From Kiritimatiellia bacterium (GTDB lineage: Bacteria; Verrucomicrobiota; Kiritimatiellia; RFP12; UBA1067), in the NCBI GenBank assembly GCA_017514235.1, contig JAFWKK010000078.1, positions 33,782 to 97,781 on the forward strand: DNA of 64,000 nt, in the 5' to 3' direction. The notes below the pieces were generated by a model. The model had not been told where the DNA came from. It was given only the letters and a program-made list of their open reading frames with translations, and ran no database searches. The translations under genes were made by a program, and so were the position numbers. This document shows positions 12,735 through 24,637 of the stretch, piece after piece (within the stretch, counting starts at the first letter, position 1; every line of letters starts with the position of its first letter).

Positions 12735-14893
12735 TTGTTCACTCCTGTAGTTTCATTTGTTGCGTTGAAAATCGCAAATCCATCCGCCGCCACCGTTCCG
12801 TGCGAACGCGAGCCTACGATACGCAGCGTCGCACCGGGCTCAAGGTCGAATTCGCCAAGCTTCCGCCAGCTCCCGGTGGCAATGCCCTGATCAACGGCGA
12901 ATGCCGTGTCCTTCCCCGATGAGAAAACGGCCATCGCAGTCGAAGATCCAGGATGCGTCTTGTAGAAATAAGGCACGCGACCCATCAGCACGTACTTCCC
13001 CGGCGTCTCGACCGGCAGCGGATAGACGACATCGCCAACGTCCCTGTTGGGCTTGTGATCAGGGCTCCAGTTGCCGCTGCCCTTGGGGAAATGCGAAACA
13101 TCTCCCACCTGTTCGCCGTTTGGATTGTGGCCAATGACCCATCCCTTGCCGAACGTCACGCCCTCAGACTCGTCGTCAACGATGCGCCAGCCGGCCTCTC
13201 TTGCGTCCGGCACGCCGGGGAAACCGCCTCCGAGCAGGGCCTGAAGTTCGCGGACGTGTCCATGCGCGAAGATGCCGCGCGGCGTCTCGCCAAGCCGGCG
13301 GCACATCGCAGCCGCTTCACCGGCTGCGACGCCGAGCTGCGACAGGGTGTTGATCACACGCGGGCCGCCCAAGCCGACATGCGTGCAGCTGAAGCAGCGG
13401 CCGACCATGAACAGATTGCCGACGTTGCGCGAATAGATCGACCGATAGGGAATCCAGTAGCGGCCGTAATGCGGCTGGCGACAGGTCGTGAGGAAATCAA
13501 CACCGGGCTTGCAGTCGTCGTAATGGAGATCCACGCTCCATGAACCGGACGCGATCGAGTCCTCGAAGAGACGCTTCTCCGTCACATCCTTCTCCGAATA
13601 GATCCAGTCGCCCAACAGACGGCGCGATTCGCGCTTGCCTAGCAGGAACGGACAGAAGTTCAGCATGCGGTTGGTGTTTTCCGGCAGGCGCTTCGCGCGG
13701 GAGAACGCGCCGTAGATGGCCAGCAGCAGCCTGTCACGGATATGCTCGCCTTCAGAAATCATGTCACGATGGATGCCGTACTCCCAGTTCCACTCGCCGT
13801 TGACCGCCGTCTCGCCCTGCGCGAACGGCTCCGCCCACGGCGCGGCGAACGGGACTGGCGCGTTCGCCTCTGCGCTCGTCCACATGATCGAAGCGCCGAG
13901 GGTGTCGGCGTCGGCCTTCTCAGGCGCGAAGCTTTCGCCATGCTCCGCCTTCGCCTCTCGACCCATACGCCAATCTGCTCCGGCCCAATAACCAATCCAC
14001 CCATCACCTGTCGCATCGCAGAAGAGCGGAGACTCGAACCTGACCATCCGGTTGCGGCGAAGGTCAAGCGCCTTGACGGCGGCGATGGTTCCGTCCGGCC
14101 TCCGCTCTACCCCGACGGCACGGGTCAGAAGCCGAACCGTCAGGTTCGTCTCATCCTCAACAATCCGCATCCGGCGCACGTCGCAGAGAGGCATGTTGAC
14201 GTCGCGGTTGAGAAAGACGCTGCGCAATTCGCGAACAAGCGGATATCGCGCCTCGCCTGCGCACCAGACACGAATCTCGGCAGAGGCGTTGCCGCCCAAC
14301 ACCGGACGATCCTGAACAAGCACGACCTTGAGACCATGTCGTGCCGCCGCAACCGCCGCGCATGTGCCCGGCATTCCGCCGCCAACCACCGTGAAGTCAG
14401 AAACTATGGTCTCGGCAACCTCGTCCGGCGGCACAAGTGGCCCTTCCGGAACGGTTCCGTCATTCGTCAGCACGATGCCGGCACAGCGTCCGTCAAATCC
14501 GTCCTTGTCCGCAAGCGAAAGAACGGCAATGCCCTTCTCAAGCGCTACCGTTCCGCCGTCCTCCCAGAACCAGTCGCTCCTCCCGGCGCCGAACATATGA
14601 TCCAGCTCGCGACCATTGACCGCAACCTTGAATAATCCTGCCCCCTTCACCCATTGTCTGTTGCGAACCCACACGCGCCATTCCCCAGAGGCAGGAATAT
14701 CCACCGATGCTCGGGCATCCAGGACACGGACACCACACCCGTGCGCCAGCAGATATGGGGAGCCCATGACGTCGGCGAACTGCGAATCAAGCTTCCATCC
14801 GCGCGCGTCGAACGCCAATGCGGACACGTCCACCCTGGCGGCGGTTGCCGTCAAGAGAGTCAACATGGCAAAAAGAAAGATCGATCGTTTCAT
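12731..14893 (-). CDS. Secreted FAD-dependent oxidoreductase with beta-sandwich flanks
   Basis: A 720-residue protein with a signal peptide (MKRSIFLFAMLTLLTATAA). Residues about 165-560 are an FAD_oxidored domain: the dinucleotide-binding segment FTVVGGGMPGTCAAVAAARHG, then VLVQDRPVLGGNASAEIRVW, then LFCDATGDGWIGYWAGADWR near the second FAD contact, and VGRCFSCTHVGLGGPRVI late in the domain. About 140 residues precede it and about 150 follow; both read as carbohydrate-binding-like beta-sandwiches. Family members are common in polysaccharide loci of PVC bacteria and Bacteroidetes, with substrate unknown. Export of an FAD enzyme by a Sec-type signal is notable, since cofactor proteins often use Tat. 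Both ends overlap neighbours by 4 bp. Confidence 0.85.
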   Translation of the reverse strand: MKRSIFLFAMLTLLTATAARVDVSALAFDARGWKLDSQFADVMGSPYLLAHGCGVRVLDARASVDIPASGEWRVWVRNRQWVKGAGLFKVAVNGRELDHMFGAGRSDWFWEDGGTVALEKGIAVLSLADKDGFDGRCAGIVLTNDGTVPEGPLVPPDEVAETIVSDFTVVGGGMPGTCAAVAAARHGLKVVLVQDRPVLGGNASAEIRVWCAGEARYPLVRELRSVFLNRDVNMPLCDVRRMRIVEDETNLTVRLLTRAVGVERRPDGTIAAVKALDLRRNRMVRFESPLFCDATGDGWIGYWAGADWRMGREAKAEHGESFAPEKADADTLGASIMWTSAEANAPVPFAAPWAEPFAQGETAVNGEWNWEYGIHRDMISEGEHIRDRLLLAIYGAFSRAKRLPENTNRMLNFCPFLLGKRESRRLLGDWIYSEKDVTEKRLFEDSIASGSWSVDLHYDDCKPGVDFLTTCRQPHYGRYWIPYRSIYSRNVGNLFMVGRCFSCTHVGLGGPRVINTLSQLGVAAGEAAAMCRRLGETPRGIFAHGHVRELQALLGGGFPGVPDAREAGWRIVDDESEGVTFGKGWVIGHNPNGEQVGDVSHFPKGSGNWSPDHKPNRDVGDVVYPLPVETPGKYVLMGRVPYFYKTHPGSSTAMAVFSSGKDTAFAVDQGIATGSWRKLGEFDLEPGATLRIVGSRSHGTVAADGFAIFNATNETTGVNK

Positions 14894-15918
14894 GTTATGA
14901 TTGCCAGGTTGCGACGGACGAGTCCGAAAGCATCGGCCTCGCGTACAAGTTCCTCATATTCCTTTTCAGTCAACGGCTGTTCGGGCGGGCGGAACGAGCC
15001 GCAGTCCAGCCCGATGTAGCGCATCATGCCCTTGCGGAAGCTGGCGTTGGGGTGGCTGTGGCAGACGAACTCCACGATGCGATTCGTCTCCTCCTGCCAG
15101 GCCGCTGCCTCGTTCCATCGGTTCTGGCGCATCGCCTCATATATCCTGACAAAGTGCGCCGGCACCACATTCTGCACAGTGCCGATGGAGCCGGAGAAGA
15201 CATTGCCGAAGGAAAGCGCCGCAACGAAATGCTGGTCGCTGCCGGAGAGGAACAGCGCCTCCTTGCCGATGCGCCGCTTCAGACGCTGGACGGCGTAGAA
15301 GTCAGTTCCCGTATATTTCATGCCCTTCACGTTGGGTATGTCGAAGAGCTTTGCGTCACGGTCAGGGTTAACCTGGCTGCCACCGATCGAATAGATCAGG
15401 AACGGCAAATCGGTTGCGGACGAAATGATCGAATAATGACGGTACGCATCCTCGAACTTCCCGCCGAAATAGACGGGCGGAACACTCGACACCCAGTCGC
15501 AACCAGCCTCTGCCGCCGCACGCGCAAGCTTCGCCGCCTCGTCGGAGTTAATGCAACCGACGTGCGCAATCAGCTTCGCGCGGCCGTTCGCCGCCTTCAC
15601 CGCGCGACGATAAACGCGAACCCGTTCGTCAAAGGTCATGTTAAGGCCCTCTCCGGTTCCGCCAGTCAGGTAGAAGCCCCTCAAGCCGTTCCTTAGACCG
15701 TAATCGATCTCCCTCTCGACCATTTCCTCGTTGAGAGAACCGTCTTTGCCGAACGGCGTGAAAAGAGCGGCATAGACGCCGTCCATGCCCTGAAACTCCT
15801 TGCCAGTGTAGGTCGGGAAGGCAAGCGTTCGTCCGACCGTGCCGGCCTGTACGCCATACGCCGCCCCCGCGCCAAGCACGGCAGCCCCAGCAATGAAATC
15901 TCTCCTGCTCGTCTCCAT
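14890..15918 (-). CDS. Tat-exported N-acetylneuraminate-lyase-like aldolase
   Basis: A 342-residue protein of the DapA/NanA family. It opens with a textbook twin-arginine signal: METSRRDFIAGAAVLGAG, then AAYGVQA. The aldolase part shows YLTGGTGEGLNM (pyruvate loop), the tyrosine of LIYSIGGSQV and the lysine of VKGMKYTGTDFYAVQ. The KYT form around the lysine is typical of N-acetylneuraminate lyases rather than DapA. Known NanA enzymes are cytoplasmic, so an exported copy is unusual. The gene follows a sialidase-like/esterase fusion by 10 bp, so released sialic acid may be cleaved outside the inner membrane. ATG 15918 was chosen because it starts the Tat motif; ATG 15942 lies inside the preceding gene. 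It overlaps the FAD-oxidoreductase start by 4 bp. Confidence 0.85.
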   Translation of the reverse strand: METSRRDFIAGAAVLGAGAAYGVQAGTVGRTLAFPTYTGKEFQGMDGVYAALFTPFGKDGSLNEEMVEREIDYGLRNGLRGFYLTGGTGEGLNMTFDERVRVYRRAVKAANGRAKLIAHVGCINSDEAAKLARAAAEAGCDWVSSVPPVYFGGKFEDAYRHYSIISSATDLPFLIYSIGGSQVNPDRDAKLFDIPNVKGMKYTGTDFYAVQRLKRRIGKEALFLSGSDQHFVAALSFGNVFSGSIGTVQNVVPAHFVRIYEAMRQNRWNEAAAWQEETNRIVEFVCHSHPNASFRKGMMRYIGLDCGSFRPPEQPLTEKEYEELVREADAFGLVRRNLAIIT

Positions 15919-15928
15919 CTTGTCTTGC

Positions 15929-17836
15929 TTATTCCTTTCCATGCTTGAAGTACTCCTCAAAACGGGCGAACACCGTCTTCATCGCCTCGTAGGCAAACGT
16001 GCGCGTATGTGAGGAATGTTCCTCGTCGATGCCGCGGACCTCCTGATGCACGTGGGCGACTCGGTTGGAAGACAGAAGGTCGTGTAACGCCCGGTTGACG
16101 CCAAAGAAGAAGTCGCCAGTGCCGATGACGGTGGTGAGCTGCACCTCGCCGTTGCGCAACTTTGCCGCGCGCGAGACCGCCGAGAAGCGCCGCCAGTCGT
16201 CAGGGTACGCAGCTGAATCGCCCAGCAACTTCACTAAATCCTTCCGCGTGGAAAACGGACGCAGGTCAACGCCGCCCATCACATTACCTACGGCACCAAA
16301 AATATCAGTGTGCCCAAATCCGACGAAGCATGCCCCGTGTCCGCCCATGGAATGCCCGGCTATGGCGCGCCCGCGACGGTCTGCAATCGTGCGGTAATGC
16401 CCGTCGACATACGGAACAAGCTCCTTCGCGACGAACGTCTCGTAGCGCATCCACGGCATTCGCGGCGAATCGATCCACCAGCTCGCGTCGCCGTAAGGGC
16501 ACACGACAATGGCGCCGATGCGGTCGGCAAGCGACAGGATCGGCCCGCAGGCATACGTGCGCTGATCGTTGCCGGCGCCATGCAGCATATAGACCACTGG
16601 ATAACGCCGATCCCCGGAAGTCGCGTAGTCGCTCGGAAGCATGACCGTGGTCGGCACGTCCTTCTTCATCGACGCGCTACGGACCGCAACCTCGGTGACG
16701 CGATCCGGCTTGGTCCCGAGCCGCCACTTGACAGCCTGTATCACCGCCGGCGCATGCAGACCGAAATGACGGTAGAAGACCGTCAGCAGCGCGCCGTCGT
16801 CGAGTTCTGCAGTCGTGGCGTAGCCAAGATCGGGATTGTCGTCGCGCTGAATGACAAGCTCGTTCGCCACGTCCCATGTACGGCCGTCATCGCTGCTCAT
16901 GACGGCGAACTCGCCCATGCGGCCCTCCTTGCGACGGGCATACGTCAGCAGCACGCGCCCATCGCGCAGTCGCAAAACATGCGGCGGATAGCCGTCCACG
17001 TCCGTCTCCTTGAGCCGCGACCAGGTGCGTCCTCCGTCTCTCGACTCCGCATAAAGCAGATGCGCAAGCCCCTTGTGATAGCGGAAGTACGCATGAAGCG
17101 TCCCGTCCTTCGCCTCATATACGGTCGGCTCGGCAATGTTCCATCGGTCCCAGCCGTCTGGAGAGATGTGTGCGACCGTCTGCCAGCTGCGTCCGCCGTC
17201 ACTCGACTCGCAGACGACTATCTTCTTGTGCTGCGGCTCGTCATTCTCCGCCTCGTCGCCGACAAGATGTCCACGGGTGTATCGGCTCTGCATCCCGACC
17301 ATAAGTATCCGTCCGTCGCGGAGCAAGGTTGGTCCGTGCGGCGTCATCGCCGGAAGGCGCACCGGAGCGGACCAGGTCTTGCCTCCGTCTGTCGAACGGA
17401 CGCAAAACGACCCCAGCATTCGCCTGACGGCATTCTTGTCGAGCTTGTTCCAGTACTTCTGGTAGCGCTCGCTGGAGGCGTATTTCGGATCGCCAAAGTC
17501 AACATCGGTGAACCAGAATACGAGCTGGGCGCCGTCCTTTAGTTCCAGCAGGGCCGCGTCCCGGTCGTCGATGGCGCAGTCATAGACCGTCTCGGGCTTG
17601 GACCAAGTCTCGCCGTTGTCCGCCGACCTGATCATGCGCACCTTTCCCCACGGGCATATGTGAGCATCGCGGTCGCCCGAATAGACGACGCGCAGCTCAC
17701 CGTTCCTAAGCCGCTTCAGCGTAGGCCAGCCGGCATAGCGTCCGCCCTCGTCGGCAATCGTCCGCGTCCAGAGCACCTCCGCTTTCGGCGCGGCAACAGC
17801 GAAACAGGCAAGGGCAAGCGTTGCAAGCATAATCAT
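15929..17836 (-). CDS. Sialidase-like BNR domain fused to a feruloyl-esterase-like hydrolase
   Basis: A 635-residue secreted protein (signal MIMLATLALACFAVAAPKA). Residues about 20-360 form a BNR/sialidase propeller with five Asp boxes: SADNGETW, STDGGKTW, SSDGGRSW, SRDGGRTW and SSDDGRTW. Residues about 375-630 are an esterase D/feruloyl-esterase-type alpha/beta hydrolase with VVYMLHGAGNDQRTY (oxyanion region), nucleophile motif GHSMGGHGA near residue 495 and a late EEHSSHT histidine. The combination suggests removal of sialic acid and of an ester group, perhaps O-acetyl, from the same glycan. The BNR half lacks a clear RIP motif, so the glycoside specificity is uncertain. ATG 17836 overlaps the deacetylase stop by 4 bp (ATGA), which fixes the start. 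A start at 17929 would extend into that gene. Confidence 0.82.
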   Translation of the reverse strand: MIMLATLALACFAVAAPKAEVLWTRTIADEGGRYAGWPTLKRLRNGELRVVYSGDRDAHICPWGKVRMIRSADNGETWSKPETVYDCAIDDRDAALLELKDGAQLVFWFTDVDFGDPKYASSERYQKYWNKLDKNAVRRMLGSFCVRSTDGGKTWSAPVRLPAMTPHGPTLLRDGRILMVGMQSRYTRGHLVGDEAENDEPQHKKIVVCESSDGGRSWQTVAHISPDGWDRWNIAEPTVYEAKDGTLHAYFRYHKGLAHLLYAESRDGGRTWSRLKETDVDGYPPHVLRLRDGRVLLTYARRKEGRMGEFAVMSSDDGRTWDVANELVIQRDDNPDLGYATTAELDDGALLTVFYRHFGLHAPAVIQAVKWRLGTKPDRVTEVAVRSASMKKDVPTTVMLPSDYATSGDRRYPVVYMLHGAGNDQRTYACGPILSLADRIGAIVVCPYGDASWWIDSPRMPWMRYETFVAKELVPYVDGHYRTIADRRGRAIAGHSMGGHGACFVGFGHTDIFGAVGNVMGGVDLRPFSTRKDLVKLLGDSAAYPDDWRRFSAVSRAAKLRNGEVQLTTVIGTGDFFFGVNRALHDLLSSNRVAHVHQEVRGIDEEHSSHTRTFAYEAMKTVFARFEEYFKHGKE

Positions 17837-19209
17837 TCGTAGCGCAATGTCCAGATCTGCCACCTCATGCGGTCGGACAGATACTTGTCCTTGAACTCCG
17901 GCGAATGGAGCCATGTGCCGGCGTAGCACATCTTCGCCAGAAACGGGAACGGGCCAAAGCCCCCAAGCTGCTCGCGCGGCGCGACCGTGACTTCGTCCGC
18001 CCCGGTTTCAAGGGTCTCCAATGCCGCGAACAGGAAATCGGCAGGGCCGATCTCTATCTCACCGACGCGAATGGAGACCGGCAGGAAGCGCGAAATGTCC
18101 ATGTCATTTGCCGCCGCCACAAGGTCTCGGCGAGAGACCCTGACCGGCGTGGCGACTCCGCGCGGCTTTTCGAGGAACCCATACGCCATACCCGGCATGC
18201 AGCTCTCTTCGCCGCGCAGGAAACGGACAGCGGCGACGAAGCAATCGGAGAGCGACCACGAGCCCGGCTCGCGCACGGGTCCGAACGATGCGGCGAGCGC
18301 CGCCCTTACCGTCGGCACGTCGCTGCGCGTCATCGCACGGCGCGGCTTGCGCGTGGCATCGATCTCCGGAAGCGTCGTGATGCGGAAGCGCGGATCGCCC
18401 TTGATGCGGCGCACCAGCTCGCGAATGCGTCCGAGATAGGTCTCAACCTCCTCCGGCGGCCTCTGCGGCGAAATCTCCCACTCTCCCCACTTGTGGCGGT
18501 TCTCGCCCTTGAAGTTGAGTTCGTCCCAGAACTCGCGCGCGTGCACCTTGTTCGGGTGGCAATAGACGATCGAGCGCTTCGTCTTCGCAAGACGGTTGAG
18601 AAAGTCGTCGGGGTCGTATTTCGCCCCTCTCTCGATGAACTCCTCCCACGTAAGCCCGTAAGGGATATGGCGCAGGTTGCAGAACCACACGTCTTCGCCA
18701 GGCGTCTCTTCCGCGAACCATGCGCCGCAGTAAAACGGAAGACCAAGCCGGGCATAGACATAAAAAGCCACGTAGGAATCGCTGTTGCCGGGTGGCACCG
18801 AGCCCCAGACGCGGTCCACGCCGGTCGCCGCCTCGACCATGCCGATGGATTCAGCCTCGCGCGCCAGCACCGCGTCGTAGGCGGCATCGAAATCCTCGAC
18901 ATCGGATATCTCAAGGAGGTTGGGGTGGACGCTGTGCGAAATGGTGTGGTTCAGCCGGAGGTGCGGCTTCAGCGCCTCGATGACGTCCCACCGGCCTCGC
19001 TGGACGAACGCTCGCGCCATGTAGCCTACGGTCACGAAATGCGCCGTCACGCCCTCTTCGGTGAAGAGCCGCGCCAGTTCTAGGACGCCATCGGCAGAAA
19101 TCGGCGACGTGAAGTCCTCCGTGTCGAAGTTGAAAAGAACCTCGGTCGGCTCGGCCTGCGCGACCGACACGAAGGCAGCTGCAAATGCAGTTAGGGTAGT
19201 CCTTTTCAT
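17833..19209 (-). CDS. Secreted polysaccharide deacetylase (NodB-like)
   Basis: A 458-residue protein with a signal peptide (MKRTTLTAFAAAFVSVAQA) and a NodB homology domain in residues about 22-260. Motif 1 is FNFDTEDF, with the catalytic and metal-binding aspartates. Motif 2 is LNHTISHSVHP, the H-x3-H metal site. Later motifs include VWGSVPPGNSD and SIVYCHPNKVH. The domain removes N- or O-acetyl groups from amino sugars in chitin, peptidoglycan or exopolysaccharides. The remaining C-terminal 180 residues (ATRKPRRAMTRSDVPTVRAA onward) match nothing I recognise and may be a substrate-binding domain. It is the second gene of the operon, overlapping both neighbours by 4 bp, directly after a membrane acetyltransferase with the opposite chemistry. 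Confidence 0.85.
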   Translation of the reverse strand: MKRTTLTAFAAAFVSVAQAEPTEVLFNFDTEDFTSPISADGVLELARLFTEEGVTAHFVTVGYMARAFVQRGRWDVIEALKPHLRLNHTISHSVHPNLLEISDVEDFDAAYDAVLAREAESIGMVEAATGVDRVWGSVPPGNSDSYVAFYVYARLGLPFYCGAWFAEETPGEDVWFCNLRHIPYGLTWEEFIERGAKYDPDDFLNRLAKTKRSIVYCHPNKVHAREFWDELNFKGENRHKWGEWEISPQRPPEEVETYLGRIRELVRRIKGDPRFRITTLPEIDATRKPRRAMTRSDVPTVRAALAASFGPVREPGSWSLSDCFVAAVRFLRGEESCMPGMAYGFLEKPRGVATPVRVSRRDLVAAANDMDISRFLPVSIRVGEIEIGPADFLFAALETLETGADEVTVAPREQLGGFGPFPFLAKMCYAGTWLHSPEFKDKYLSDRMRWQIWTLRYE

Positions 19210-20354
19210 CTCTGCTTGATCTTTCTTCGAATTGACAGCACCGCCACTATCTCAAGCACCACCACGACGGCGACGATGAGCGGCTGGTAGCGGTCAGTGC
19301 CGAGCAGGTGGGGGAACCCGGGCGTAAGTATCTCTGCGAACTTGACCGTCACCGGCTTGAAGAACTCCTCCATCAGATATGCGGTCAGCGCAAACTGCCC
19401 GAAGAGAACCGGCAGTCCAAAGCCGCGGCGGACGCCGAAGATGTCCGTCAGCACGTAGAGCGCGTCCAGCAGCAGCACGCACCAGCCCATCGCCTGTGCC
19501 GTGAAGGACACGGTGAAGATGTGCTTAACCGTCCGAACGCCAGCGAAAGTCAAGATCCAGCCGAGCGCAAGCAACGACGCGCCGTAAACGGCAAGCCGAA
19601 CGGCCTTCCGCCGCGGCTCGGCGCCAGCCTGGAGGATCTTGGTGGCGAAGTATCCGCAGAACGTCATGAACACGAACATCGGAGAGGTGAGGATCCAGGT
19701 GTAGCAGATCTCCCCTTTCTCCGAAACGTCCGGCAGATAGCCCAGCTCGCCGATTTCGTGGATCGCCTTCGAGCCTGCCGGCAGCACCGCCGACAAGACC
19801 GCATTCTCGAAGCGATACGCGAAATTGTCCTGCATCGAATAGTCGCCGAGGAAATGTACCAGCAACCCGTATGCTGCGAAGCAGGCAACGGGAATCGCGA
19901 TTCGGAACTTCATTGACTTCACGCAGATCGCCATGGCGCAGGCAAGATAGCCGAGGGCGATCGTCTGCAGGGTGTTGTTGTAGGGCCTGATCTCAAGCGC
20001 GTCCAGCGAGGCGAGATGGCCCTGCACCAGCATGCCCAGCACCCACAGCATGGCCACGCGGCAGATCACATGCTTCCAGTAGGCGCGGTCGGGGGAGCCG
20101 CCCGCCTGCTCGATCCGGCGTTCCAGGGAAAGCGGAATCGCCGCGCCGCACATGAACAGGAACATCGGCATGATGATGTCCCAGCATGTGAAGCCCTCCC
20201 ATGGGTGCGTCAGCTGAAACAGCACGCCGTCAGGAAGGCCCCATACCGCATGCACCGCCCAGAGAAGAGGCCCGACCACCGTCAAAAACATCATGTCCAA
20301 CCCCCGAAGCACGTCGAGGGAATACAGACGCCGCTGAGACACATCGCTTTTCAT
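19206..20354 (-). CDS. Membrane acyltransferase, heparan-alpha-glucosaminide N-acetyltransferase-like
   Basis: A 382-residue polytopic inner-membrane protein with about ten hydrophobic segments. It opens RRLYSLDVLRGLDMMFL and has LTHPWEGFTCWDIIMPMFLF followed by CGAAIPLSLERR. These are landmarks of the COG4299/DUF5009 family related to lysosomal HGSNAT, which carries acetyl groups from cytoplasmic acetyl-CoA across the membrane onto terminal glucosamine. In bacteria the acceptor is mostly untested. It is the first gene of the eight-gene operon. ATG 20354 lies only 8 nt after an extended -10, so its mRNA is probably nearly leaderless. It is divergent from the regulator at 20459, which carries its own acetyltransferase domain. 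The next gene overlaps it by 4 bp. Confidence 0.85.
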   Translation of the reverse strand: MKSDVSQRRLYSLDVLRGLDMMFLTVVGPLLWAVHAVWGLPDGVLFQLTHPWEGFTCWDIIMPMFLFMCGAAIPLSLERRIEQAGGSPDRAYWKHVICRVAMLWVLGMLVQGHLASLDALEIRPYNNTLQTIALGYLACAMAICVKSMKFRIAIPVACFAAYGLLVHFLGDYSMQDNFAYRFENAVLSAVLPAGSKAIHEIGELGYLPDVSEKGEICYTWILTSPMFVFMTFCGYFATKILQAGAEPRRKAVRLAVYGASLLALGWILTFAGVRTVKHIFTVSFTAQAMGWCVLLLDALYVLTDIFGVRRGFGLPVLFGQFALTAYLMEEFFKPVTVKFAEILTPGFPHLLGTDRYQPLIVAVVVVLEIVAVLSIRRKIKQR

Positions 20355-20362
20355 GTACGCGC

Positions 20363-20371
20363 ATTATAGCA
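20363..20371 (-). promoter_or_regulatory. Extended -10 promoter of the eight-gene operon
   Basis: The minus strand reads TGC-TATAAT (20371 to 20363) and ends 8 nt before ATG 20354. No convincing -35 is present. Two GGCAAG direct repeats (20391-20396 and 20414-20419, 23 bp apart) lie between this promoter and the divergent one, and are possible contact sites for the XylR-type regulator. Confidence 0.6.
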
Positions 20372-20445
20372 AACCGCGCTATTGTTATTCGGCAAGAGTT
20401 TCTTTGCTTATATGGCAAGCGACGCTGCGGCGAGACGAACTTTGT

Positions 20446-20451
20446 TATAAT
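20446..20451 (+). promoter_or_regulatory. Extended -10 promoter of the XylR-GNAT regulator
   Basis: TGT-TATAAT, with the hexamer at 20446-20451, ends exactly 7 nt before ATG 20459, so the transcript probably begins at the start codon. There is no ribosome binding site between the -10 and the ATG. Confidence 0.6.
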
Positions 20452-20458
20452 TCCACCC

Positions 20459-22078
20459 ATGAAAACCATCGCCATCCACCTGAGGCTTGAAACGGCATCG
20501 CACCGCAAGCGCATGATGGGGATATTCCGGCACGTCGGGGCGTCGAACGCGTGGGACGTCAGGATCATTCCCAACGAGGACATCCTCTGCAAGCAGCTGC
20601 TCACCGAGAACCCGGACGAGCGACCGGACGGAATAATCTCCGGCATACCATATTCAAAGCAGGCATTAAGCGCCATCAGCGCGTCCGGCATACCTTTCGT
20701 CGGCATAGGGATGACTGAGTCAGAACTGTCCGCACGCTCCAGCAAGTGCGGGTTCGTGCTGAACGACAACGAGGGCATCGGACGTTCGGCGGCGGAATAT
20801 TTCCTTTCGCTCGGCGACTTCCGGTCGTACGCCTTCGTCTCCGACACGCGCGGACGCAACTGGAGCCTGCTCCGCGGAGAATCCTTTGCAGCCGCCTTGA
20901 AGTCGGCGGGCAGGTGCTGCATCACGTACCGCTCCTCCGAACAGGACGCTGCGACTCTCTCCGAGTTCCTTGCGAAGCTGCCCAAGCCCGCCGCCATCTT
21001 CGCCGCCTGGGACGGAAGAGGCGCCGACGTCATTCATGCGGCGCACAAGGCGAGGCTTCAGGTTCCAGATGACGTTTCGATCCTAGGCGTCGATGACGAC
21101 GACCTCATCTGTGAACATACCGTCCCTACCCTAACCAGCATCAGGACGGACGCCGAAGGAATGGGCGAGCATGCCGCAAGGATGCTGGATGCGCTTGTCA
21201 ACGGCAATGCGCGAAACCATCCGCGCAACATCAAATGCCCGATTCTCGGAATAACGGAACGTGGCTCCACGCATCCGACTTCGCCTGCTTCCAGCCTAAT
21301 CAAGCGCGCAGTCTCCTTCATCAGCTCCGAAGCCGTGAACGGCATAACCCCCGACGACGTCGCCAGGCATCTCAAGATATCCCGCAGGCTTCTTGACCTT
21401 CGCTTCAAGCAGTATGAATCCAGGTCCGTTGCCGAAAGCATAACGGACCGCAAGCTGGAAAGCGTGAAACAGCTGCTGGCGAACTCAGAGGTTCAGATAA
21501 AGGACGCGTTCAGGCGCTCCGGCTTCGGGAATGTCGCCTATGCGACAAAGCTCTTCAGGGAAACCTTCGGCATTACGCCGGAAAACTGGCGACGGGAGCA
21601 ACGCGCCGCAATGTCTGGAGCTGCGGCTTCCGCGCCAAGGCGGAGCGGGCAGCTGGAGCGACTGTCGGACATTTCCAATGCCGACGCGGCGTCCCTCCTT
21701 GAACTGTCCATGCAACTTTCGGACGAATCGGCGTTTGACGTCGAGTCGCTGCGCCGGTCCATGCAGCGCGGCACGACTTCCATATTCGTGATGCGGCACA
21801 AGGCCAGAATCATCGCCAGCGTCTCCGTCGCCTGCTTCGCGACCCCTACCGGGAACCATTGCCGCATCGAGGACGTAGTCGTGGACGAAAGGCATCGCGG
21901 CAAGGGCCTCGGGCGAAAGCTGATGACCAAGGCCATTGAAGCGCTGCGAGCAATGAACGTAAAGCACGTGGAACTGACGTCGCGGCCTTCGCGGACAGTC
22001 GCGAATGAACTTTACCGGTCGCTGGGCTTCAAGCTCCGAAAGACGAACGTCTACGGCTTTGAACTGAAGGACGCCTGA
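20459..22078 (+). CDS. XylR-type AraC regulator fused to a GNAT acetyltransferase
   Basis: A 539-residue protein with three parts. Residues 1-265 are a LacI/XylR-type periplasmic-binding-protein-like sensor (FVGIGMTESELSARS, then AAIFAAWDGRGADVIHAA, then VSILGVDDDDLICE). Residues about 280-380 are a complete AraC DNA-binding domain (ITPDDVARHLKISRRLLDLR, then IKDAFRRSGFGNVAYATKLF, RETFGITPENW). Residues about 400-539 are a GNAT domain with the acetyl-CoA motif VVVDERHRGKGLGRKLM near residue 475 and a late ANELYRSLGF. XylR-like regulators normally end after the AraC domain at about 390 residues; I know of no standard one carrying GNAT. ATG 20459 is set by a TATAAT box 7 nt upstream; earlier starts run back through the divergent gene. 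It likely controls the adjacent deacetylase/acetyltransferase operon. Confidence 0.9.
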   Translation: MKTIAIHLRLETASHRKRMMGIFRHVGASNAWDVRIIPNEDILCKQLLTENPDERPDGIISGIPYSKQALSAISASGIPFVGIGMTESELSARSSKCGFVLNDNEGIGRSAAEYFLSLGDFRSYAFVSDTRGRNWSLLRGESFAAALKSAGRCCITYRSSEQDAATLSEFLAKLPKPAAIFAAWDGRGADVIHAAHKARLQVPDDVSILGVDDDDLICEHTVPTLTSIRTDAEGMGEHAARMLDALVNGNARNHPRNIKCPILGITERGSTHPTSPASSLIKRAVSFISSEAVNGITPDDVARHLKISRRLLDLRFKQYESRSVAESITDRKLESVKQLLANSEVQIKDAFRRSGFGNVAYATKLFRETFGITPENWRREQRAAMSGAAASAPRRSGQLERLSDISNADAASLLELSMQLSDESAFDVESLRRSMQRGTTSIFVMRHKARIIASVSVACFATPTGNHCRIEDVVVDERHRGKGLGRKLMTKAIEALRAMNVKHVELTSRPSRTVANELYRSLGFKLRKTNVYGFELKDA

Positions 22079-22090
22079 GAGCGTCCACCC

Positions 22091-24637
22091 TTATTTCGCG
22101 GGCTTCGCCTCAAAATCGACTACGACCGGCGAATGATCCGAGACGTCGAGGACGCCCTGTTCCGTAACCACCGCATGGCGGAGCGCATGGACGCGATTCG
22201 TTCCAACCAGCACATGGTCGATCGAAGTGGCGGAAGTGTTGTCTTTTTCACGCAAGGTTCCGCGATAACGCCCCTGGTCGTCACGCCTGGGATTGCCGTG
22301 GTGGGATGAAATCTTCGACGCGTCGTCCGCCGCTTCGGCCGCCGTGACGAACCCTTCCTTTTCCAGCATCTCGTACGCCCAGCTTCCCGGCTTGGAATTC
22401 AAATCCCCTCCGACGACGACGGGGACGTCGCCGTATTTCCACTTTATCGAGCGGATTCGCCATATCAGCATCTGCGCGTTCTGCTCCCTTATTGCATCAG
22501 ACTCGCGCCCGTTGGCCTGCCACCAGAAATGCGTCGATGCGGCAACGACGAGTCCGCCAGTGTTCCTGTCCTCAAGGACGGCCCACGTCAGGCCCTTGTT
22601 GTATTCCAGCCGCGCATGAAACACGTCAAACCCGCAATCGACAAGCCTGTACCTTTCTTTCCTGTAAAGGAGCGGCACATGGTTGCGCAAGCGGTCAGGG
22701 GCGATTCCGCCGGCGCATGCCGCCTTGAACGCCTCGGCTTCGTTTCCCTTGATCACGGCATATCCGGCTTTGTCCAACTTAGGGAACAACGCAGACCTCC
22801 ACCAGTTTGGAGTCACCTCCTGCAATGCGATTATATCCGGCCTGGCGGACACGATGGCATCCGCAACGCCATCTTCCCGCTCGTTCGGCGGATTGCCGAA
22901 GTAATCGCCCCATATGTTGAAGGTCATCATTCGAGCGGTTTCGCGGCAAAGTGCGTTGCCGGCATCAGTGGCGAAGTGAGGTTCTGAACACGAGCCTGAA
23001 GAGAGCCGACAGTCCACTTTCAGCTGCGTTACCGCCGAAAGCACAAGCGCAGAAGGTTCCGCGGACACATCCCACTCGAACTTGCCGTCCGCCGCCGTCA
23101 ACGGCATTCTCCGCCCCATCACATCGAACAGTTCGGCTTCGTGCGCATCGGTGGCCAAGTGCACTGCCGCATGTGCGCCGCCAGCGGTCCAGCCGACAAG
23201 AACGATCTTGTCCCCTCCCCTAAAGCGATATACCTTCATCTCGTCTCCGTCGGCGTGGGCACATTCGAAGTCTAGTCCGTTGAATATGGCCGCCAAGGCG
23301 CAGAACGAGGCGAACGCCGGCATAGGATGCCAGTCATGCGTCATTACGCCATAAGCCCATTCCACCCCGGCGCCTGCGCGTCCAGATTTCGCGCGCAGGT
23401 TGTACCAGGTGTAATCCGTGCTTCCGTGCGCCCATGCGTACAGAATCTTCCGCCACACGTCGATCGCGACCGGCACTTCGCGCCCGCCTGACGCATGGTC
23501 GGCCGTCTCGTTCGAATACCACGGCTGCTTGACGCCGTAGCGCTTCAGCAAAGGGAAGAACTTGGAATTGAGTCTCGATTCGTAATTGTCGAAAGAGCCG
23601 TGCAGATGCACCGGCAAGACGTCGAACCAACCCTGTCCCTTTTCAAGAAACTCCTCCATTATGCCGAGGTTTGGAAGGCGCTTGCCCTTGTGAAAGTAGT
23701 CGTCCGAACCTCCCACCGCCCATCCGCAGGTGGTGACGCATGCCGCAGGGCACGATTCCTTTATGCCCTCCCACGCTTCTCGCTGGAGGCGCAACGCCAC
23801 GCCGGGCGGCAGTATCCAGCGCGGCACCATGTCGAATTCATTGCCTATCTCATAGTAGTCTATCTGCGTGCCGTAGCGCGCGGCAAGAGCCCGACAATAG
23901 TCCCTGAACAACCCTTCCCTGGGCGGCATGCAGCCTATCGCCCATTCAACCTTGTCGCGAATGCAGTTTGCCACACGGTTTGACTCGGCCGCCCAGCGCG
24001 GCACCCTGCCGTAAATCGTGGCATTAACCGATATTCCACGGCTGCGGAACGCCTCTATGCCCTCGTCTGACTCGCGCCAGTCAAAGCAGCCCTCGCCGCC
24101 GGACATCACGTCGCCGAACCCTGCAAGACCGACACGGGCAAGTTTCGCGCCAGACGCCACAAACGCATCGTACAAGAGACGCCGTTCCTCATGAGCGTAG
24201 TACAGCGGATGGTCGGTGAAGCCGAAACGGAATTTCGGCTTGGACAAGAGAGGCGTAACCTCGTGCCGTTCCACGAACGCAAAGCTTGTCGAGGCGGCAG
24301 GCCTGTCCGAACTTCCTTCAAAAAGACGTATCCAGTAGAAGCCCTTTGCGGGGAGCGGCCCCGGCAGAGGATATCGGCCGGCCATGCCCGGCGGCAAGGT
24401 GTCGGCCACGGGCACGGTGAAGCCGCGCCCCTTCCAGTCCCGCACCTCTAGCCGCCCTCCGACAGCCTGCGCCGAAGAAGATGCGTTGGAAACAACCGCA
24501 ACGACAGGCGAACGTGCATCATGGACCAGATGCAGCGCGTTGCCGGTATCGACATCAAGCGACACGTCCGACGCCGGCAGCATGCGAACCGACGCGAGAC
24601 AGAGCAGGACCGGAAAGGCAATTCTGGACATCTTCAT
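22091..24637 (-). CDS. Secreted clan GH-A glycosidase fused to an endonuclease/exonuclease/phosphatase domain
   Basis: An 848-residue protein with a signal peptide (MKMSRIAFPVLLCLASVRM, then LPAS). Residues about 30-125 are a beta-sandwich. Residues 130-540 are a GH39/GH5-like TIM barrel with acid/base Glu in DYYEIGNEFDM and a probable nucleophile Glu in WYSNETADHA. Residues about 568-845 are an EEP-fold phosphoesterase: RMMTFNIWGDYFG, DIIALQEVTPNWW, VVVGGDLNSKPGSW, SIDHVLVG and a final VSDHSPVVVDF. All EEP catalytic landmarks (N, E, DxN, D, SDH) are present. EEP domains cleave phosphodiester or phosphomonoester bonds, so a phosphate-decorated glycan is a plausible substrate. It follows the preceding gene in the operon by 17 bp and converges with the XylR-GNAT gene. 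Confidence 0.85.
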   Translation of the reverse strand: MKMSRIAFPVLLCLASVRMLPASDVSLDVDTGNALHLVHDARSPVVAVVSNASSSAQAVGGRLEVRDWKGRGFTVPVADTLPPGMAGRYPLPGPLPAKGFYWIRLFEGSSDRPAASTSFAFVERHEVTPLLSKPKFRFGFTDHPLYYAHEERRLLYDAFVASGAKLARVGLAGFGDVMSGGEGCFDWRESDEGIEAFRSRGISVNATIYGRVPRWAAESNRVANCIRDKVEWAIGCMPPREGLFRDYCRALAARYGTQIDYYEIGNEFDMVPRWILPPGVALRLQREAWEGIKESCPAACVTTCGWAVGGSDDYFHKGKRLPNLGIMEEFLEKGQGWFDVLPVHLHGSFDNYESRLNSKFFPLLKRYGVKQPWYSNETADHASGGREVPVAIDVWRKILYAWAHGSTDYTWYNLRAKSGRAGAGVEWAYGVMTHDWHPMPAFASFCALAAIFNGLDFECAHADGDEMKVYRFRGGDKIVLVGWTAGGAHAAVHLATDAHEAELFDVMGRRMPLTAADGKFEWDVSAEPSALVLSAVTQLKVDCRLSSGSCSEPHFATDAGNALCRETARMMTFNIWGDYFGNPPNEREDGVADAIVSARPDIIALQEVTPNWWRSALFPKLDKAGYAVIKGNEAEAFKAACAGGIAPDRLRNHVPLLYRKERYRLVDCGFDVFHARLEYNKGLTWAVLEDRNTGGLVVAASTHFWWQANGRESDAIREQNAQMLIWRIRSIKWKYGDVPVVVGGDLNSKPGSWAYEMLEKEGFVTAAEAADDASKISSHHGNPRRDDQGRYRGTLREKDNTSATSIDHVLVGTNRVHALRHAVVTEQGVLDVSDHSPVVVDFEAKPAK

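Follow-up and report, generated by a model that had tools for sequence, protein, structure and literature searches.

A 64,000-nucleotide stretch of the Kiritimatiellia bacterium assembly GCA_017514235.1 (contig JAFWKK010000078.1, positions 33,782 to 97,781; hereafter the window, with G000 as its source genome, that of a ruminant gut bacterium) encodes a XylR-type transcription regulator that carries a GNAT acetyltransferase domain at its C-terminus. What is new here is the addition of a GNAT domain to a XylR-type regulator, an arrangement present in three species. With moderate confidence, we propose that this protein would be a bifunctional local regulator, namely an activator of a divergent nagX-like operon which also brings along an acetyltransferase of the same pathway, acting on a small amine or amino sugar. 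The protein and its parts are located as follows, in window coordinates.

20459..22078, forward strand: XylR-type regulator of 539 amino acids ending in a GNAT domain (open frame, Pfam domains, two orthologues)
20459..21271, forward strand: LacI/periplasmic-binding-protein-like sensor domain, residues 1-271 (Peripla_BP_3; XylR structure alignment)
21296..21607, forward strand: AraC-type DNA-binding domain, residues 280-383 (HTH_18)
21608..21658, forward strand: variable linker, residues 384-400 (highest dN/dS among the segments)
21659..22075, forward strand: GNAT acetyltransferase domain, residues 401-539 (acetyl-CoA loop, invariant residues)

A sequence-only reading of this region had described a sensor, an AraC domain and a GNAT domain in one uninterrupted frame. 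This architecture was borne out by the single open frame and by three Pfam domains scoring above their gathering scores, namely Peripla_BP_3 at residues 112-271 (E 2e-29, 103 bits versus 26.5), HTH_18 at residues 302-379 (E 2e-14, 54 bits versus 33.6) and Acetyltransf_1 at residues 436-524 (E 1e-15). The E. coli XylR structures 4fe4 and 4fe7 match residues 13-379 by sequence. The predicted model of the full-length protein was of poor quality. An upstream extension of the frame to a further ATG at 20201 is possible. However, since conservation with the two relatives described below (G004 and G037) begins at MKTIAIHL, position 20459 is the likely start codon; at this point G004 would start with GTG.

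Like E. coli XylR and other regulators of this type, the window protein consists of a LacI-like sensor followed by an AraC domain. While XylR-type regulators stop after the AraC domain, the window protein continues into a GNAT domain some 140 residues long, and its tail extends 160 residues past residue 379. In an excerpt of PMC12125979, all 258 XylRA homologues are described as having just two domains. The source genome itself contains 37 XylR-type matches, including the window protein and some partial ones, and the 29 other loci that were fetched have at most 36 residues after the AraC domain, except for one (L011). The earlier statement that such regulators are known to end there fits nearly all of the paralogues fetched, which stop soon after this domain. 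The exception L011 (G000:C82:55716-56852), another XylR-type regulator, carries a tail of 94 residues behind its AraC domain, and Pfam gave no match in its last 93 residues.

The identical fusion, again in one frame, was found by a full-protein search in two other genomes among the 59 of the genus, the source genome included. The orthologue from a goat-ileum Kiritimatiellae metagenome-assembled genome (MAG; G004) shares 91% identity over residues 1-538, and that from a sheep-colon Kiritimatiellae MAG (G037) shares 54% identity over residues 1-535. Both possess the same three Pfam domains as the window protein. Comparison of G000 with G004 gave point values for the ratio of non-synonymous to synonymous substitution rates (dN/dS) in each segment: sensor 0.148, AraC part 0.124, linker 0.294 (on only about 51 sites) and GNAT domain 0.105. 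As the GNAT value is near those of the other segments, selection constrains this domain about as strongly as the rest of the protein. Purifying selection acts on both halves, GNAT and regulator.

An assembly or sequencing error might have joined two adjacent genes, and the GNAT is indeed a separate gene in one relative, a yak-rectum MAG (G085) belonging to a genus other than that of G000. The sequence-only reading had paired such a separate gene with an error at the junction as grounds for doubting the fusion; the separate gene exists, whereas the junction error is contradicted by the recurrence of the fusion, free of frameshifts, in two other species at 91% and 54% identity. In addition, the G085 GNAT is directly divergent from a nagX-like gene, with no regulator gene adjacent to it that could be joined. 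An artefactual origin is hardly credible in view of the recurrence and was rejected.

The acetyl-CoA loop of GNAT enzymes follows the motif R/Q-x-x-G-x-G/A, which is fitted by RHRGKG in the window protein. The loop RHRGKGLG occupies residues 478-485 (the longer stretch quoted earlier covers 478-489), and the invariant GNAT residues are E471, D472, R480, G481, G483 and Y519. Across seven GNATs, RG-x-G is invariant in all seven, whereas R or Q opens the motif in three. The residues of the loop that the sequence-only reading had pointed out are retained, and the predicted fold of the C-terminal domain is that of a GNAT. Glucosamine-6-phosphate N-acetyltransferase (GNA1) is a candidate nearest relative: likeness to it is strong in the sequence profile, which leans weakly to glucosamine-phosphate enzymes; the structure 3fb3 ranked fourth in Foldseek, and GNA1 was not singled out by VIA-align. 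From sequence and predicted fold, the C-terminal 140 residues or so would form a catalytically competent GNAT enzyme, with both catalysis and substrate as putative elements of the proposal above, whose moderate confidence applies to it as a whole.

RimI and NatC/Ard1 also appear among the structural matches of this domain, and there is a weak match to the RimI family. The GNAT might thus acetylate another protein, as a ribosomal or N-terminal acetyltransferase or as a toxin-like enzyme, in which case the fusion would be regulatory only for its own expression. However, the RimI match reaches 39 bits against a cut-off of 86, and the linkage to a nagX-like gene is constant. GNAT-HTH (helix-turn-helix) toxin-antitoxin pairs do exist, but as separate genes according to an excerpt of PMC6929052, while the DNA-binding half here is a sugar-sensor AraC protein. 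We consider this alternative quite unlikely.

The operon on the other side of the regulator begins with two overlapping genes.

19206..20354, reverse strand: NagX-like transmembrane acetyltransferase, 382 amino acids, divergent from the regulator (NF046061)
17833..19209, reverse strand: secreted-looking protein, perhaps a NodB-like deacetylase, with a 4-bp overlap with the nagX-like gene (sequence reading)

All three fused genes are divergent from a nagX-like gene, so that G004 and G037 keep both the fusion and its orientation, a point that the sequence-only reading had proposed to check. The NagX-like protein resembles NagX/HGSNAT-type membrane acetyltransferases in matching the NCBIfam model NF046061 over nearly its full length (E 2e-29) and in possessing a histidine in the first loop. 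This residue, His50, is kept in 42 of 43 aligned rows, its own included, and is a candidate equivalent of the acetyl-carrying histidine in the excerpted text of PMC9007349, the two having been equated by reading and not by alignment. The score of 102.8 bits is far under the NagX cut-off of 480; therefore, the substrate may differ from that of NagX. The earlier reading had named a transmembrane acetyltransferase and a deacetylase as the first two genes of this operon. The former agrees with these matches, whereas the protein at 17833-19209 gave no Pfam, NCBIfam or PDB sequence match at the thresholds used, and the deacetylase label rests on a reading of its sequence. Relatives of this second protein lie near nagX-like genes in four loci (L045, L087, L113 and L116).

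NagX elsewhere has a role in glucosamine use, with periplasmic acetylation of glucosamine from cytoplasmic acetyl-CoA proposed in the part of PMC9007349 considered here. A GH84 beta-N-acetylglucosaminidase and an MFS transporter are encoded near the G085 locus. Further downstream, the window encodes an N-acetylneuraminate-lyase-like protein and a protein in which sialidase-type repeats are combined with an esterase domain; at this spot G004 carries another gene, and the G037 contig stops short. The NagX-likeness together with the GH84 and the sialidase and lyase neighbours makes an amino-sugar pathway likely for this locus. The N-acetylneuraminate-lyase-like protein (DHDPS family; 14890-15960), which adjoins the BNR-repeat/esterase protein at 15929-17929, has a weak twin-arginine signal match below the Pfam cut-off, and such a signal would be odd for a cytoplasmic aldolase.

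In G085, a GNAT of 153 amino acids, 50-55% identical to the others, is divergent from the nagX-like gene in the same place without the regulator. By contrast with these four loci, 38 other nagX-like neighbourhoods (L082-L119; blastp, E 1e-6) contained neither a XylR-type gene nor this GNAT gene; 42 of the 63 matches were covered, including the four GNAT loci, and several neighbourhoods stop at contig ends, so neighbours could be missed. In a NagX tree of 43 rows, from which frames shorter than 300 amino acids were dropped, the four GNAT loci group together (97/88), and within this group G085 pairs with G037 (100/100). A topology test on 17 chosen rows rejected a clade of fused loci only (p-AU 0.00018). 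The GNAT tree has the same shape (81/87), yet here the fused-only clade was not rejected (p-AU 0.235). G037 shares its genus with G000 and G085 does not, which puts the gene tree at odds with the genus assignments. Because G085 is nested inside the fused clade, the simplest account is probably that the fusion arose once and that G085 later lost the regulator half; independent fusion on two occasions and transfer between lineages are possible alternative histories. A GNAT kept after loss of its regulator suggests an enzyme with its own job instead of a mere acetyl-CoA sensor, which points to a function independent of the regulator.

This history bears on a different role for the domain, in which the GNAT would be part of the switch, with acetyl-CoA binding or self-acetylation making nagX-like transcription depend on both acetyl-CoA and sugar. 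NagX-type enzymes are proposed to draw on cytoplasmic acetyl-CoA (excerpt of PMC9007349), which would make it a sensible signal, CoA-binding transcription factors such as MtPrpR exist (excerpt of PMC6765138), and the two halves are covalently fused in three species. Nevertheless, the GNAT half survives without the regulator in G085, most simply through loss of the regulator half as judged from the NagX tree. Furthermore, the loop and the E, D and Y residues are common to the window GNAT and free GNATs, and the linker is short and variable. We regard such a switch as possible but somewhat unlikely.

The GNAT might also modify the regulator's own ligand, making or removing the inducer as a feedback trigger enzyme. 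The sugar-binding sensor, the NagX-like neighbour and the amino-sugar context would suit such a role, as would the slight tendency of the GNAT profile towards glucosamine-phosphate enzymes. Against this, the 38 other nagX-like neighbourhoods do without a XylR-type or this GNAT gene; with ligand and substrate both putative, we find it unlikely. A more elaborate version would be a one-protein circuit, in which the GNAT makes or removes the sensed amino sugar, induction is set by sugar and acetyl-CoA together, and the yak lineage dropped the regulator and kept the enzyme. This is quite unlikely.

In the bifunctional local regulator that we prefer, the ligand of the LacI-like domain would be a sugar or an amino sugar, and the AraC domain would switch on the nagX-like operon by binding a pair of direct repeats in the 104 bp between the divergent genes. 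The GNAT would most likely acetylate a small amine, for example an amino sugar, in the cytoplasm, and the NagX-like protein would acetylate one in the periplasm. A place for a cytoplasmic GNAT in the nagX pathway is suggested by the predicted fold, the acetyl-CoA loop, the purifying selection and the nagX linkage with and without the regulator. The fusion would supply the enzyme together with the regulator, and the data need no allosteric link between the halves. The candidate regulatory elements are the following.

20384..20419, no strand assigned: candidate operator of two direct repeats, kept in the three fused loci
20446..20451, forward strand: candidate -10 box TATAAT, 7 nucleotides upstream of the regulator start (by position; putative role)
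20363..20368, reverse strand: TATAAT, candidate -10 box for the nagX-like gene (by position; putative role)

With the starts as chosen, the intergenic regions of the fused loci measure 104, 111 and 125 bp, whereas that of G085 measures 55 bp; if the outermost listed nagX starts are taken, that of G037 becomes 89 bp and that of G085 31 bp. The repeat copies in the window are GTTATTCGGCAAG at 20384-20396 and CTTATATGGCAAG at 20407-20419, 23 bp apart. The best internal repeat is the same block in all three fused loci, with two copies of approximately GyTTATnyGGCAA, and it is retained despite a protein identity of 54%. Taken locus by locus, the repeat is weak, as 23, 27 and 36 of 300 shuffles were equally good. 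The block was not found in the G085 intergenic region. A pattern over 20391-20407, built from the three loci, matches its own genome exactly only once, at this locus. As for a wider regulon, allowing up to 3 mismatches gave 98 matches versus 70 in a reversed control, which is not clearly above it.

AraC-type activators have a binding site overlapping the -35 region. If 20363-20368 is the -10 box, the nagX-like gene here would have its -35 region overlapped by the first repeat copy, a tentative placement, as G037 has a different spacing. Binding to a pair of direct repeats is reported for XylR-type proteins (excerpt of PMC12125979). By eye, TATAAT stands 7-9 nucleotides before the regulator start in the three fused loci; it also stands before the second Met of the lone G085 GNAT and 8 nucleotides before nagX in the window genome. 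This spacing suggests that the messages may be leaderless.

The GNAT of the window protein was found in 5 of 115 genomes of the family (E up to 1e-8) and in the same five of 162 genomes of the order (E up to 1e-12). Three of these carry the fusion, G085 has the standalone gene and G072 has a C-terminal piece. A fusion with this GNAT is thus rare (3 of 162 order genomes), and GNAT-based searches would overlook regulator fusions with a different GNAT. The G072 piece (L120 537-761) comprises only about 75 C-terminal residues in a frame overlapping another gene, lies on a different contig from the nagX-like genes of that genome, and can be described as a remnant. In an evenly drawn phylum sample, taking the best 10 candidates per genome, the GNAT was present in 1 of 387 genomes, its own. 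When 346 genomes of the class were searched with the full protein and the best 4 candidates per genome were scored, only the three known fusions extended beyond residue 462 among the matches listed; a match in G089 reaches residue 462 but crosses four stops. None of the 55 matching plasmid records spans 80% of the query.

The three more distant relatives of the GNAT in named genomes (Planosporangium, a deltaproteobacterial MAG and a Harrisonbacteria MAG) are standalone genes of 148-162 amino acids, as is the GNAT of G085. Therefore, within this GNAT family, the fusion looks like an exception, on few examples. Free-standing GNATs with LTSRPSR..AN.LYRSLGF share the loop and the invariant residues with the window GNAT but are separate proteins, while the latter is joined to a transcription regulator.

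Further differences among the loci concern flanking genes. The gene beyond the regulator (22091-24637) encodes 848 amino acids in the window versus 1110 in G004 (L045 7215-10547), where Pfam places a GDPD domain mid-protein that has no match in the window copy; the ends of the two proteins are very similar. Between the regulator and this gene, G004 has a 205-amino-acid Gly/Pro/Arg-rich repeat protein with a signal-like start (L045 6481-7098), not seen at the equivalent spot in the window. In G085, an FkbH-like protein (weak match; L046 5952-7550) is convergent with the lone GNAT, with a 4-bp overlap.

Ada combines an AraC domain with a methyltransferase, and MarR-GNAT proteins exist. Fusions of a helix-turn-helix regulator with a GNAT are already a named product class in an excerpt of PMC13295564. 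In all of these, as here, a single polypeptide unites DNA binding with an enzyme, be it an acetyltransferase or another, but the window protein differs in its LacI-like sugar sensor with an AraC domain and in its nagX linkage. No description of an AraC-GNAT fusion was found in the open-licence literature of PubMed Central, covered by title for the broader wordings. The suggestion of an undescribed regulatory principle goes beyond the evidence.

These gut bacteria are rich in XylR-type regulators, as the 37 matches in one genome illustrate, and for most of them we know of no identified ligand. An enzyme fused to such a regulator beside a membrane acetyltransferase gives a testable hint of the ligand, of the pathway and of a link that may exist between acetyl-CoA and the use of sugars. 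The solitary GNAT of G085 is a naturally occurring free form to set against the enzyme fused to its regulator.
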